IMG/VR virus record: IMGVR_UViG_3300006224_000005
Coordinates: 1-41,805 of that record
DNA from: a virus
DNA length: 41,805 nucleotides
Strand: one strand, 5' to 3'
Shown: piece after piece, positions 13,412 through 41,656 of the stretch
Position numbering within the stretch: position 1 is the first letter of the stretch
Layout of the letters: every line of letters starts with the position of its first letter
Notes under the pieces: generated by a model
Database searches by the model: none
What the model was told of the DNA's origin: nothing
Seen by the model: the letters and a program-made list of their open reading frames with translations, nothing else
Program-made: the position numbers and the translations under genes

Positions 13412-13603
13412 TTATTCTTCCACTTCCAAACTCCTACAATCAATCCATTTCTCACTATGCAAGGAGATAAGATCGAATACCTGCTTACCAACTCGCTCCT
13501 GAAGGGCGGAGATGTGGGTATGATAATGGAGGTTGTATTCTTCTATTACTTTGCCATCCTTTTTTAGGATGACTTTACCATAGTGGTTTCGATAGGCGTG
13601 CAT
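13412..13603 (-). CDS. duplicated small basic protein, copy A
   Basis: 63 aa, ATG at 13603, TAA at 13412. Begins MHAYRNHYGKVILKKDGKVI. Copy B at 16144-16332 is identical in protein over the first 61 residues; only the last residues differ. The DNA copies differ at five positions over 183 bp, all synonymous. Function unknown. Confidence 0.75.
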   Translation of the reverse strand: MHAYRNHYGKVILKKDGKVIEEYNLHYHTHISALQERVGKQVFDLISLHSEKWIDCRSLEVEE

Positions 13604-15301: not shown

Positions 15302-15517
15302 TTATTTTCTCGTTACGAATTTAAAATAGTTCTCTAAATGCTCTATGCTTATAACTCAACATTCCCGACATTCTGCCAAATCCCATCTTGTTTCTATTTC
15401 AGAATCTATATTTCGACAGAATACTTCCCAATCATCCCATTGTTCAAGTTTTATATCTATGGTTATACCATGAGAAGCATAGACGGAATCGTATTGTTTA
15501 AGGAGTTTGAATTTCAT
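15302..15517 (-). CDS. Trp/Cys-rich small protein, family member 1 of 3
   Basis: 71 aa, ATG at 15517, TAA at 15302. Shares DSVY, W..W..FC, IETRWDL..CREC and IS.EHL..YFK with the genes at 24491-24745 and 27927-28178. This copy lacks the NTTG insertion region. The CREC pair and other Cys residues could bind a metal. Function unknown. Confidence 0.7.
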
Positions 15518-16143: not shown

Positions 16144-16332
16144 TTAAGATACTTCCAAACTCCTACAATCAATCCATTTCTCACTATGCAAGGAGATAAG
16201 ATCGAATACCTGCTTACCCACTCGCTCTTGTAGAGCGGAGATGTGGGTATGATAATGGAGGTTGTATTCTTCTATTACTTTGCCATCCTTTTTTAGGATG
16301 ACTTTACCATAGTGGTTTCGATAAGCGTGCAT
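16144..16332 (-). CDS. duplicated small basic protein, copy B
   Basis: 62 aa, ATG at 16332, TAA at 16144. Protein identical to copy A (13412-13603) except for the last residues (EVS instead of EVEE). All internal DNA differences are synonymous, implying selection on the protein or recent gene conversion. Confidence 0.75.
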   Translation of the reverse strand: MHAYRNHYGKVILKKDGKVIEEYNLHYHTHISALQERVGKQVFDLISLHSEKWIDCRSLEVS

Positions 16333-24490: not shown

Positions 24491-24745
24491 TTATTTTTTT
24501 GTAGTTACCCATTTAAAATATTCACATAGGTGTTCTGGACTTATTATTTGACATTCTCTGCATTCGTCCAAGTCCCACCTTGTTTCTATTCCAGTGGTAT
24601 TTTCAAGTCAATTACTGGATGCCATTCTATTATTTATACAGAATGATTCCCATTCATTCCAACAATCACGATCTATAGATATTTCTACTCACCAATTCTT
24701 GTAAACACTGTCGTTTTGATTTAAAAGTATAAACTTGTTTTTCAT
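24491..24745 (-). CDS. Trp/Cys-rich small protein, family member 2 of 3
   Basis: 84 aa, ATG at 24745, TAA at 24491. Nearly identical to the 27927-28178 protein (KNW-Gly-VEISIDRDCWNE... CREC...EHLCEYFKWVTT). TAAC 9 nt before the ATG. Both copies keep TGA glycines at the same places. Confidence 0.75.
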
Positions 24746-27720: not shown

Positions 27721-27927
27721 TTAATTATCTTTACTCCATACTTCTTTTCATTTATATTCCGTACATATCCAACAATTTACTTCTCAATCATATACTTTAT
27801 CATATGGGAATTTCCCTCAACAATCTAAATGAAAACACGCTCATTCCGGTGCTTTTATAATTATTACTTCATTCCAATCAAATTTCTTGGAACAAATTAA
27901 GCATTTTTCTGATACAGTGAATTGCAT
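27721..27927 (-). CDS. zinc-finger-like small protein
   Basis: 68 aa, ATG at 27927, TAA at 27721. Cys/His pairs CLIC, CFHLDC and CWIC are spaced as for a two-zinc or LIM-like fold. Three TGA glycines. Start overlaps the upstream stop (TAATG). Confidence 0.65.
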
Positions 27928-28178
27928 TATCGAGTAGTTACCCATTTAAAATATTCACATAAGTGTTCTGGACTTATTATCTGACATTCTCGGCATTCAT
28001 CCAAATCCCATCTTGTTTCTATACCAGTCGTGTTTTCTATTCATTTACTGGATTGTATTCGATTATTTATACAGAATGATTCCCATTCGTTCCAACAATC
28101 ACGATCTATTGATATTTCTACTCACCAGTTCTTGTAAACTGAATCGTTTTGATTTAGTAGTTTAAATTTGTTTTTCAT
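27927..28178 (-). CDS. Trp/Cys-rich small protein, family member 3 of 3
   Basis: 83 aa, ATG at 28178, TAA at 27927. About 90% identical to 24491-24745 and related to 15302-15517. TAAC 10 nt before the start. Conserved W, C and the CREC pair suggest a folded metal-binding domain. Confidence 0.75.
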
Positions 28179-28528
28179 ATTCTTGTAAGTTATATAAGTA
28201 AAGTTATTGTTTAGTATATCCCGAGTATCCTGTGTTGCCTTTTATTGCTATCCCTCTGATATTAAAAGAAAGATATAAGAATAGATAAATAGTATCTAAA
28301 CAATATCACCACACAGAGTGCAGATTATCTTTTACAATCAGAGGAGCAAAGGCAAGATACCCGAGTGTACATCCCGATATAACCTTGTGAGCCTTCCCAT
28401 CTATTATCCCCCCAGAGTTTCCTCTGCGTCCCTTGTGATACATATAAGATGGTTGCCTATGTATCGGAACTCGATTCTGTTCTTTAGGAACATAAAATAG
28501 AGCCTATAAAGACTCTACATTTATATTT
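28179..28528 (-). other. region with an inverted repeat and an uncertain open frame
   Basis: A minus-strand frame without TAA/TAG runs from about 28500; its first ATG is at 28443 (MYHKGRRGNSGGIIDGKAHK, then a hydrophobic YLAFAPLIV stretch). I could not fix its end with certainty between 28250 and 28205. The sequences around 28211-28260 and 28333-28366 form a long imperfect inverted repeat (ATCAGAGG...GCAA...GGCAA...ATAC.CG). GC content is higher than in the neighbours. It may be a small membrane protein, a structured RNA, or both. Confidence 0.35.
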
Positions 28529-28666
28529 CTAACGATCTTCTGAAATACGTTTTACATTTTCAGCTGTAAGACTTCTATCTCCTCCTGAAAGTGGAACTAC
28601 TACTATATCTGCAACCATACTTACTGGAAGAGTAACGATATTTCCAAGTGTATTAAATAGACCCAT
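28529..28666 (-). CDS. small hydrophobic phage protein
   Basis: 45 aa, ATG at 28666, TAG at 28529 (MGLFNTLGNIVTLPVSMVAD). A hydrophobic middle followed by GGDRSLTAENVKRISED, resembling small phage proteins found near capsid or replication genes. Its start lies 10 bases after the terminator of the pseudoknot leader, so its expression is probably controlled by that leader. Confidence 0.65.
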   Translation of the reverse strand: MGLFNTLGNIVTLPVSMVADIVVVPLSGGDRSLTAENVKRISEDR

Positions 28667-28675
28667 AATATAATA

Positions 28676-28713
28676 AATTAAAAAATAGTGTTAACCTTTC
28701 GGCTATCACTATT
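28676..28713 (-). terminator. intrinsic terminator in the 28.7-kb leader
   Basis: AATAGTG ... CACTATT stem enclosing AGCC-GAAA-GGTT (GNRA tetraloop) and followed by TTTTTT. It precedes the start codon at 28666 by only a few bases, the geometry of a transcription attenuator. Confidence 0.8.
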
Positions 28714-28788
28714 TCGATTTACTCAGGCATTTACTTGAGGGCTGTCGTTCCCAAGTGACAGCCTGAGAAGTTGATTTTATATTAAATC
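28714..28788 (-). promoter_or_regulatory. riboswitch-like pseudoknot leader
   Basis: Transcript-sense P1 is CUCAGGC/GCCUGAG (28767-28761 with 28728-28722). Inside it, hairpin GCUGUC...GACAGC has loop ACUUGGGAAC, whose ACUUGGG can pair with CCCUCAAGU just 3' (28741-28733). This makes an H-type pseudoknot, directly followed by the terminator at 28676-28713. P1 and the inner hairpin share the bases GC. I do not recognise a known riboswitch class. Confidence 0.6.
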
Positions 28789-28794
28789 CCTGAT

Positions 28795-28822
28795 AGTATA
28801 CTCTTTCTAAAATAAAAATCAA
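28795..28822 (-). promoter_or_regulatory. sigma70-like promoter, 16-nt spacer, for early leftward genes
   Basis: Minus strand TTGATT, 16 nt, TATACT. It initiates just upstream of the pseudoknot leader and diverges from the plus-strand promoter at 28881-28908. Confidence 0.65.
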
Positions 28823-28880
28823 ATCTTTTTTTTCTTTTCTTCATCTCCCATAGGAAAACAGGAATTAAAAGTGAATAGAT

Positions 28881-28908
28881 TTGCAATTTACTATGTATAG
28901 GATATAAT
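28881..28908 (+). promoter_or_regulatory. sigma70-like promoter, plus strand, 16-nt spacer
   Basis: TTGCAA, 16 nt, TATAAT. The only promoter on the plus strand, for the short rightward unit 28936-29288. Confidence 0.7.
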
Positions 28909-28935
28909 GGGTGAGTATTATTTAACTATAAAAAT

Positions 28936-29094
28936 ATGATTTATAAAGTTTCTTGAAGAAATACAGAGGATACAGTATGATTCAACGATATTTGGAAAAA
29001 CTGATATTTCAATTTAATAATAAGTATTTTTTTATTAAAATTAAAAAGACGACCCGCAACTATTTTTAATATAGAAATAATCATTAACAAATAA
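28936..29094 (+). CDS. possible small protein of the rightward unit
   Basis: 52 aa, ATG at 28936, TAA at 29092 (MIYKVSGRNTEDTVGFNDIW with two TGA glycines). Ends 6 bases before the next ATG. Hydrophobic middle (NLIISIFLLKLKRR). Support: position after the plus promoter and TGA-coded Gly at plausible places; otherwise weak. Confidence 0.4.
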
Positions 29095-29099
29095 ACTCT

Positions 29100-29288
29100 A
29101 TGAAAACAATAATTTTAATGACAAACGATAACAAACTTCTTTTATCGAAGGATGAAACATCAGAAAAATTGATTATAGATTCAAGTTTAGAAGTTGAGTT
29201 TGATGGAGATAATTTGATTGTTAAACTTAAAAATGATTATAAAAATTATTGAAATGTAACAGTTGTTAAAGATTGATTTGAATTATAG
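29100..29288 (+). CDS. small protein of the rightward unit
   Basis: 62 aa, ATG at 29100, TAG at 29286. MKTIILMTNDNKLLLSKDET opens a beta-rich protein; EVEFDGDNLIVKL follows. Two TGA glycines near the end. TAAC lies 11 nt before the ATG, and a terminator follows directly. A divergent, separately terminated single unit is a common arrangement for a phage regulator or moron, but no DNA-binding motif is visible. Confidence 0.65.
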
Positions 29289-29294
29289 AAGTAA

Positions 29295-29331
29295 AAAACA
29301 AAATCCCCTTGCTGTGTAGGGGATTTTTTAT
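29295..29331. terminator. bidirectional terminator closing the rightward unit and the late operon
   Basis: AATCCCC...GGGGATT stem with T-runs on both sides (plus: ATTTTTTA; minus: ATTTTGTTTTTT). It ends rightward transcription after 29288 and leftward late transcription after 29338. Confidence 0.85.
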
Positions 29332-30613: not shown

Positions 30614-30952
30614 TTATTTTTTAGTAATATCATCTTTTCTTCGTTCTTCCTTCATATCTACTCAAAGATATTTCAGAACCAAATCCGCCCCTTTCTCTTC
30701 GAGAATTGCAAGGATAGGGAATGAAGAGAATCCAGAGATTGCAAGGATTCCATCTCTCATTCCACCTTCAGGAATAAATTTACCAACCGTATACCCTACA
30801 AATCAGGCGAGCATAATATTGAGACAGAACAGAGCAATAGTAAATTTACGACCTTTTCTCATAAGATAAAGGTTATGTCAGAATCATCCGACCATTGCTA
30901 TCCCTGCTGTCGATCCAAGTTCTATAACTTTTTGAAGGTATTCGTTCGGCAT
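30614..30952 (-). CDS. holin, LydA-like
   Basis: 112 aa, ATG at 30952, TAA at 30614. Two to three membrane segments (TAGIAMVGGFGHNLYLM, FTIALFCLNIMLAGFVGYTVG, and GILAISGFSSFPILAIL) and a charged C-terminus fit the LydA family of phage holins. Three TGA glycines. In the late operon near the C39-like peptidase. Confidence 0.75.
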
Positions 30953-39115: not shown

Positions 39116-41656
39116 TTATTTAATACGTCATCCTGATTGTTTCAATGTTGGTGTTGTCGGTGTTGTTTTTGTTGGTGTAGTATAAAACTCAGGGAATATC
39201 TTTGGTCATAAATCTTTTTTAAATCAAAGTTTTGTGTTTATTGCTGTCTGAGCCCTACGATCTGCTATATTTGAAAGATTATCGAGAATAGTTGTATTAA
39301 ATTCGTCTATATTCTTTATCTTTGGCATACTATTTATAAGTCGTGCGACTTCTTTGTCACTTGCCGCCGTTCCTGATATAGCTCTGATATAGTCGGCAAC
39401 GAGAACACCGAGTTGATTATTTGCTTTTGCAAGCTCATCACTCGTCGTTCTACCGAAATAGTTTGCGACCGTCTCAGCCATATTTGTAAGAACCCCAGTA
39501 TCACCTCCACTTGTTTTATATTCAGACAGTATATTTTTAAGATTTCCGAGACCAGATTTTAAATCAGCATTATCCATTACAATATCGTTCACACGTTTGT
39601 CATTTAGTATATTACCCCTGAACATTTGGTATACTGTATCAGTATCTCAGGAATCAGCATATTCATTTACTATCTTCGTGAAATTTGCAGCATCTTCATT
39701 TGAGAATCAAGGTCATCTTGGCTGGGTATCAGCCATATATTTTGCAAGTTTCTGGATATCAGTTTTACTTTCTGTTTTTCATACTCAAATACTACCGCTA
39801 AAACCTTCGTGTTTTGCCATTGCACTTGCAAGCTCTGGGAGTCTATCAGTAAGATTTTTAAGTGGTTCATCTGGTGAAATACCCATTTGTTTTGCTACTG
39901 CTTGTGCATAACTATTTGGGTCGTTCTGATCTTCAGCAGGAGCATATACACTTATCATTTCTTTTAGCGTGTTTGCCTGTCGTCAGAGCTTATTTATAGC
40001 TGCCTGACTCTGTCCATTTACCTTTGCCGATATGTCATTTATCATTGAATTAAATCCAGTATTCGCATCTGGGAATATAGTGAATCATTTATCGTCTACA
40101 CCATACCCAACATCTCCAATCTTTACATTTCAAGGATTATTATTTCTATCTGCTCGTGTTCATTTTGTTCCAGCTGTTACTTCGGAAGTTCCAGTTGAAG
40201 TAGTAGGTGTTTTGAATGTCCCAGTTTCAGGGTCATATACAGCACTTCATTCTCATACTACAAATGGTTTTTCTTGTTTTGTTTCAGCATCTTTCTTCTG
40301 CTGTTCTCGTACTAAAATGAGTCCTTTTATAGTTCCGTTGTCCAAGTCCATATCCTGCCCGAGATTCATAATATCCTCATCTGTTAGACTTGTGAGGTCG
40401 CCTTTCTGGATAAGTGCGAGTTGTTCTTTTTGTTGGTCTCTTGTAATGGATTCTTGGTCTCTTACGTCTTTTTTGTAGTCGAGTAGTTTCTTATAGTTGA
40501 AATCCATCATTTTATAATCCTTTTCCCACTGTTTATCGAGCGAGTCGAAATACTCCTTTGCAACGTCTTTGATTGCGAGGAGTCATTCCTTTGTAGCCTT
40601 TCCTTTCTCTGCATCTATCTTCTGAATCTGAGTGACTACAGAGTTATATCTGTCTTGTAGTGCCTTTTTACTGTCGGCTTGGATAGTAGTAATAGTGTCG
40701 AGGTATTCTATATCGAGTTTTGCATCGGCATCCTTGTATTTGGAAAGCATAGACTCTCTCTCACCTTCGAGACTGGTGATAGCTTGGTTTCCTTCATCAA
40801 TTATATTGTTTATACCTTGAATACCTCCGCTTGTGAATCATACACCAGTAATAGCGGCGATTTTCTGAGCGTTTATAAGAGCAAGGTCATTGGCTTTTCT
40901 TGTACGGTCAATTGTCGTGTTGTATCGGTCTTTTAAATCTGCTTGCTCACGACTAATAGCCTGAGCATTTATATCCTTGAGCTTCGTAACCTTATCAAGA
41001 AACTGTTCGTATGGTTGGAGGGTTGTCTTCTGATCCTCAGCTGATAATGCCCCTGTTTTAATAGAATCAGCCAAATCCTGTTTCTGTTTGTCAAGGTTCG
41101 CGAGTTCGTTCTTGAGATTTGTTTGTAGGAACTGTGAAGTAGACGAAAGAAAATCTTGTTGCCCTGTTTTACCAGTTGTTGGAATAACTCCAGCTCCTAT
41201 TTCGGCTGTAGCACCTTTATTCTCAAGTGCTGTAAACTCTTGGTTTCTTTTATCGAGTTCGGCTTGTTTTCTTGCTGTTTCTTCTTGTGCGAGTTGAAGA
41301 GGTGTTTTTACTGGTGCTTCACCTATACCAGAAAGAGCCTGATTATTTCGTGCTATAGAATCAGTAGGTTTTGTCCCGAGTGTTCCACTTATGGCAGTTG
41401 GAACATCCGGGTTATAATCTGGGCTATAAGTACGCATTACATCCGTGTTTATCTTCACAGTTGGTTCTACAGGAGCAACACCGCCAGATTTGAAATTACT
41501 CTTGAGAGTTTCAAAGACATTTGCACCGCCCGCAGTTGTAGCACCTTGAAGAGTCGATTTAATACTCGCAGTTGCATCCGCTGTGGATTTTCCCTGAGAT
41601 TTCAATATGTCGTATTGCTTTTGTAGATCCTCGTTTTGTTTAGCGGTTATTGCCAT
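39116..41656 (-). CDS. 846-aa virion protein with peptidoglycan-hydrolase-like domain
   Basis: ATG at 41656, TAA at 39116; one frame through many TGA codons. The N-terminal 480 residues are mostly coiled coil (ELANLDKQKQDLADSIK). A domain from about residue 500 to 610 contains ADRNNNPGNVKIGD, FTIFPDANTGFNSMINDI, MISVYAPAEDQNDPNSYAQA and MGISPDEPL, the layout of phage-structure lysozyme-like domains (NNPGN...F..F....G..A....YAP..DNNP..Y...V...LG). The Gly of NNPGN is TGA. Probably an ejection protein that opens the host cell wall. Immediately upstream of the ART protein. Confidence 0.8.

Follow-up and report, generated by a model that had tools for sequence, protein, structure and literature searches.

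We favor, by a modest margin over even chances, the view that a 113-nt leader on the minus strand of this phage genome (28788-28676) controls a small phage gene by transcription attenuation. The window, i.e., the complete stretch of DNA analyzed, is a 41.8-kb virus record. In minus-strand order, a promoter-like site is followed by the folded leader, an intrinsic terminator, a 45-codon ORF, and a second terminator; as an attenuator demands, an intrinsic terminator is thus found between the promoter-like site and the start codon. The site TTGATT-16-TATACT (28795-28822) had been called a clear promoter in the initial annotation. Its position does make a promoter role plausible, and transcription would be expected to start near 28788, but it scored only 9/12 in the consensus scan, where the number of such sites alone is not distinctive (35 per 5 kb, compared to 26.6 ± 5.7 expected). 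The terminator hairpin (28714-28683) consists of 8 bp, an A.A mismatch, and 5 bp closed by the GAAA tetraloop that had been noted previously, and its run of six U residues occupies 28685-28680. The ATG of the presumed regulated gene (MGLFNTLGNIVTLPVSMVADIVVVPLSGGDRSLTAENVKRISEDR, 28666-28529), identified by ORF call and start context, is close downstream as originally described, although it lies 13 nt past the U run rather than about 10. Because the terminator scan placed a terminator (28518-28497) directly 3' of this ORF, the leader-ORF unit is monocistronic; because the promoter scan found no well-placed promoter between the leader terminator and the start codon, expression of the ORF should require readthrough.

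All pairings described initially for the minus strand, namely P1, an inner stem, a loop complement, and the terminator, are present in the sequence. P1 is formed by segments A (CUCAGGC, 28767-28761) and E (GCCUGAG, 28728-28722). The inner stem joins GGCUGUC (28763-28757) to GACAGCC (28746-28740, segment C), and since its GGC is also part of P1, the two helices compete for shared bases, just as had been proposed. P2 pairs ACUUGGG (28756-28750) with segment D (CUCAAGU, 28739-28733) through 7 bp, one of them G-U. Segment B (GGCUGUCACU, 28763-28754), the putative 5' strand of an antiterminator, can pair with segment C, enter partly into P1 and P2, or pair with segment F (AGUGAUAGCC, 28710-28701), which is both the terminator 5' arm and the antiterminator 3' strand. 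These pairings are mutually exclusive and are in excess of chance. The minimum free energy of the whole leader is -37.7 kcal/mol, compared to a mean of about -16.8 for shuffled sequences (z of -6.6 to -6.7), and a value as low was reached in 0/200 and 0/1000 shuffles. The 58-nt core alone is less extreme (z of -3.95; 2/1000 shuffles), but its alternative fold, which has no pair in common with the best fold, has an energy of -15.1 versus -7.6 ± 1.8 for shuffles; as none of 1000 shuffles was this low, the overlap of competing helices is not accidental.

The loop complement had been taken as one stem of an H-type pseudoknot. The complementarity of ACUUGGG and CUCAAGU stands, but UGUC adjoins ACUUGGG without a linker, and GACA is only three bases from CUCAAGU (none if the inner stem runs to GACAGCC). 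Judged from these lengths, linkers of 0 and 0-3 nt could not span two full stems, where up to 11 base pairs would have to be crossed, which makes a pseudoknot with both stems complete sterically doubtful. Hairpins that exclude one another are a better fit to the pieces, and a partial pseudoknot, UGUC:GACA plus ACUUG:CAAGU, may form.

The original comparison of this architecture to a transcriptional riboswitch or attenuator is strengthened by a competing antiterminator that had been missed. Segments B and F are complementary over 10 contiguous bp, and with small bulges, the pairing grows to 17 bp via the upstream CU and AACUU, reaching both the 5' arm and the loop of the terminator. The energy of this duplex, -20.2 kcal/mol, was equaled in only 1/5000 shuffles of the upstream sequence (-9.3 ± 2.2), and it ranked first among 1128 minus-strand stretches, being matched only by those that contain the leader. 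A softer control, in which only the arm was measured, covered 50 terminator-like hairpins from this phage and related ones; one other had an upstream complement as strong, so chance can produce a match of this kind. In prediction, GGCUGUCACU is an antiterminator that pairs with the terminator 5' arm and loop to the exclusion of the terminator, and the leader, as modeled, holds the full attenuator set of sequestering stem, antiterminator, and terminator.

Folding was predicted by thermodynamic calculation on growing transcripts, treated as naked RNA at 37 °C. Hairpin B:C is predicted to dominate at 50-62 nt, with a probability above 0.99, and P1 together with P2 to take over from 64-66 nt. The antiterminator competes only in the range of 90-96 nt, where its probability is 0.30-0.74, and the terminator closes from 98 nt, exceeding 0.99 from 102 nt. 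Leaving B:C is estimated to cost ~10 kcal/mol, whether the path leads to P1/P2 or to the antiterminator; the path estimates from P1/P2 to the antiterminator are 16-18 kcal/mol, and from the antiterminator to the terminator state, 16.5-19 kcal/mol. These barriers were calculated for direct paths and are upper bounds; at such heights, each late state would be kinetically held, which suggests that the choice of fold is made early and then kept. For the full-length transcript, the terminator state is predicted to be ~10 kcal/mol better than the antiterminator state, and readthrough would then need active input or a timing effect.

In the mechanism we propose, RNA polymerase would start near 28788 and the nascent RNA would first make hairpin B:C, to be followed by P1 (A:E) together with P2 (B:D). 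Both B:C and P1/P2 would sequester segment B, and since both hide the antiterminator strand, termination is probably the default outcome: with B unavailable, the terminator would form and transcription would stop to give an RNA of ~105-110 nt. An input that freed B, or that unfolded P1/P2 before the terminator 5' arm was made, would allow B to pair with this arm and on into the loop, and polymerase would then read into the 45-codon ORF. Candidate inputs are a phage or host protein, an RNA acting in trans, polymerase speed, and a metabolite. Presumably, these pairings form in cells and the 45-aa gene is their target.

The same features can be accommodated in other ways. The strongest rival, and a live one, is that the locus encodes a stand-alone phage small RNA of ~105 nt that is always terminated, in which case the ORF would be expressed by leakage or never and the B:F pairing would be incidental. 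We consider this a minority possibility of real substance. It is consistent with a final structure of two stable hairpins ending in a strong terminator, with a thermodynamic preference for termination of ~10 kcal/mol, and with a subthreshold likeness to a small RNA-plus-terminator model, STnc400 (27.6 bits versus a gathering score of 80). A small RNA, however, has no need of alternative folds far better than those of shuffled sequences, nor of an unusually good upstream partner for its terminator arm, and the ORF that follows starts in a proper context and is closed by a terminator of its own. The initial annotation went further in the direction of regulation and proposed a new riboswitch. In such an arrangement, P1 and the internal pairing, perhaps as a partial pseudoknot, would be the aptamer, and a ligand would lock B away to cause termination, making an OFF switch; the core, which is compact and GC-rich and contains several helices that overlap, and the complete terminator/antiterminator platform after it would suit this role. 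Riboswitch aptamers are usually widespread, but neither an aptamer conserved in several genomes nor a known class was recognized here: Rfam gave no match at gathering thresholds, as had been anticipated, and no other copy was detected in the window, in related phages, in ~730 Patescibacteria genomes, in phage and plasmid records, or, by exact and gapped patterns, in viral contigs. The downstream gene also gives no hint of a ligand. A metabolite riboswitch is thus improbable and the label of new riboswitch unsupported; the underlying observation of the leader is real, having been slightly undersold as a switch and oversold as a new riboswitch. We think it similarly improbable that the leader represents a new, single-copy class of ligand- or protein-sensing switch in phages of bacteria using genetic code 25, in which the 5' strand of the aptamer doubles as the antiterminator and controls a small phage protein.

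Two further readings were weighed. A polymerase-modifying antitermination RNA like put of phage HK022 would bind the transcribing polymerase and let it pass the adjacent terminator; as with putL just downstream of PL (PMC9378689), a structured RNA directly follows a phage promoter and is ahead of a terminator. HK022 put works by contacting polymerase, and its effect extends to terminators 10 kb or more away (PMC9378689), whereas a base-pairing exchange suffices to account for the terminator here without such contact, and the second terminator ends the unit only ~150 nt on. In addition, put is described as two stem-loops of ~70 nt, and the leader core is one compound stem plus a terminator. We therefore consider a put-like role very unlikely. 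Less credible still is a DNA-level element, an operator or recombination site, for which the core would be the imperfect inverted repeat CTCAGGC-N4-ACTTG/CAAGT-N4-GCCTGAG. An RNA model of the core matches the opposite strand too (19.6 bits), a consequence of that dyad, but a DNA element leaves unexplained the B:C hairpin, the B:F pairing, and the placement of the terminator, and no recombinase gene was recognized nearby. Two other candidates were tried and rejected. For a ribosome-mediated leader peptide, the only frames available were ATG-CCT-GAG-TAA and a 7-codon frame starting with TTG, neither of which has the start context of this phage. A type III toxin-antitoxin RNA (ToxI-like) would be expected as tandem repeats ahead of a ToxN-type nuclease, but the folded RNA is single copy, and the downstream 45-aa ORF had no Pfam match above cut-off and none in PADLOC.

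Relatives of the leader RNA were sought at several distances. Rfam matches at E ≤ 10 were all subthreshold, the best being STnc400 (RF02058; E of 8e-4); membership was rejected because the score is 52 bits under threshold and reflects a generic hairpin-plus-terminator fit. In viral contigs, which were scanned by exact or gapped patterns only, neither the exact core nor the antiterminator pair had any match. The pattern CTGTCACTTGGGN{1,6}GACAG had four, none with the leader architecture, and the P2 pattern had 66, none accompanied by P1, the inner stem, and the terminator. Phage and plasmid records yielded no usable match in nucleotide searches at either near or distant range. A terminase search located one relative phage (L002/G001; 40 kb) with a terminase ~59% identical and little else in common, and the leader RNA is absent from it. 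On the minus strand of this related phage (L003, near 5200), the exact 10-mer AGTGATAGCC is found in an intergenic stretch that is rich in hairpins, with a strong complement upstream; it was discarded as a relative of the leader, as it resembles the terminator arm and the rest of the leader is missing.

Host genomes were approached through a GTPase motif carrying an in-frame TGA for a glycine codon, a pattern that matched five Patescibacteria-type genomes. Starting from one of these, the search was widened to 353 genomes of its class, queried with the terminase, the RNA model, and the 45-aa protein, and to 380 genomes of its phylum, queried with the RNA model. Across these ~730 genomes, the RNA model gave no match above background. 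The model was built from one sequence and has a short reach, and strict filters were used in the large searches; absence of the leader RNA beyond close relatives is thus weakly shown. In the class search, terminase relatives were present, one at an E value of 5e-86, and matches to the 45-aa protein were only doubtful. One terminase in this class of TGA-reading Patescibacteria (L047, G123:C39, 18434-19150) is 55% identical to that of the window, and next to it, at the beginning of L048, is a related DNA methyltransferase; the locus is possibly a prophage or a binned phage relative.

As far as can be read from its sequence, the leader acts like a transcription attenuator, and membership of a named family is not supported. 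Terminator/antiterminator attenuators include the leaders of Bacillus subtilis rplJL and of T-box genes. With these, the leader shares an antiterminator that excludes an intrinsic terminator and, upstream, a structure in which the antiterminator strand is sequestered; it differs in having no recognizable T-box, r-protein site, or leader peptide, and no homologues were found. A T-box reading was set aside in the absence of any Rfam match. The glnA and Downstream-peptide RNAs (RF01739 and RF01704) are also structured leaders ahead of a short-peptide gene, the ORFs that follow the Downstream-peptide motif being typically 17-100 aa long (PMC2864571), but this cyanobacterial and marine family numbers hundreds of copies, whereas the leader here is single copy and has no Rfam match. 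Phage carriage is a feature in common with the manA and wcaG RNAs, which are candidate cis-regulatory RNAs with a defined structure that also occur in phages (PMC2864571); in contrast, those RNAs accompany sugar or photosynthesis genes of cyanophages. The order of hairpin then terminator common to STnc400 and the leader is compatible with a generic small RNA shape only. If it works as predicted, the leader would be a small RNA switch, complete in itself, carried by a phage of uncultured bacteria, and little is known of how these bacteria control their genes. The model predicts four successive folds and specific mutations that would flip the outcome, all testable in vitro, and the leader alone would not open a new class of mechanism.

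The 45-aa protein has a hydrophobic stretch, a match to phrog_33676 (E = 0.012), a family whose function is unknown, and a weak DUF1375-like motif below cut-off; there was no Pfam match above cut-off. The start context of its ORF agrees with that of other genes of the phage, which are without Shine-Dalgarno motifs. Such a motif precedes only 1/66 minus-strand start codons of the window, compared to 16% before any ATG. Instead, T is found at -1 in 56/66 of these starts, and TAA and TAAC lie 8-19 nt upstream of 53/66 and 26/66, respectively, compared to 25% and 6% before any ATG. The upstream TAA may in part be stop codons of the preceding gene, but TAAC and the T at -1 stand out. On one side of the leader, the late genes reach their lysis end (holin-like, 30614-30952); on the other is a long stretch of small genes. 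A compact, terminator-bounded divergent cassette (28497-29327) comprises the minus-strand leader-ORF unit and a plus-strand ORF (29100-29288), which has promoter-like sites upstream and a two-way terminator (29300-29327) behind it. The cassette looks like an inserted accessory ("moron"-like) module.

Most genes in the window have an open frame only if TGA codes for an amino acid. PHROG scores were higher with glycine than with tryptophan for the terminase (196.9 versus 182.4 bits), the Erf-like annealing protein (88.7 versus 81.0), two methyltransferases (156 versus 137.7 and 243.8 versus 231.1), and a tape-measure match (61.5 versus 43.9). These sequence comparisons assign the phage to genetic code 25 (TGA = Gly). 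This code is found in Gracilibacteria, Absconditabacteria, and phages thought to infect them (PMC10746230), and the host is therefore probably a member of one of these two groups. As no tRNA was found in the window, the host would have to supply the tRNA that decodes TGA. Other features of the window include two ORFs 2.7 kb apart (13412-13603 and 16144-16332) that have the same protein start (MHAYRNHYGKVILKKDGKVIEEYNLHYHTHISALQERVGKQVFDLISLHS) and, from that identity, are judged to be a recent duplication. Three paralogous small genes (MKxKFxLLxQxDSVY...; 27927-28178, 24491-24745, and 15302-15517) are scattered in the accessory region. Finally, the tape-measure-like protein encoded at 39116-41656 also matches a family annotated as endolysin, which suggests an embedded wall-cutting domain.
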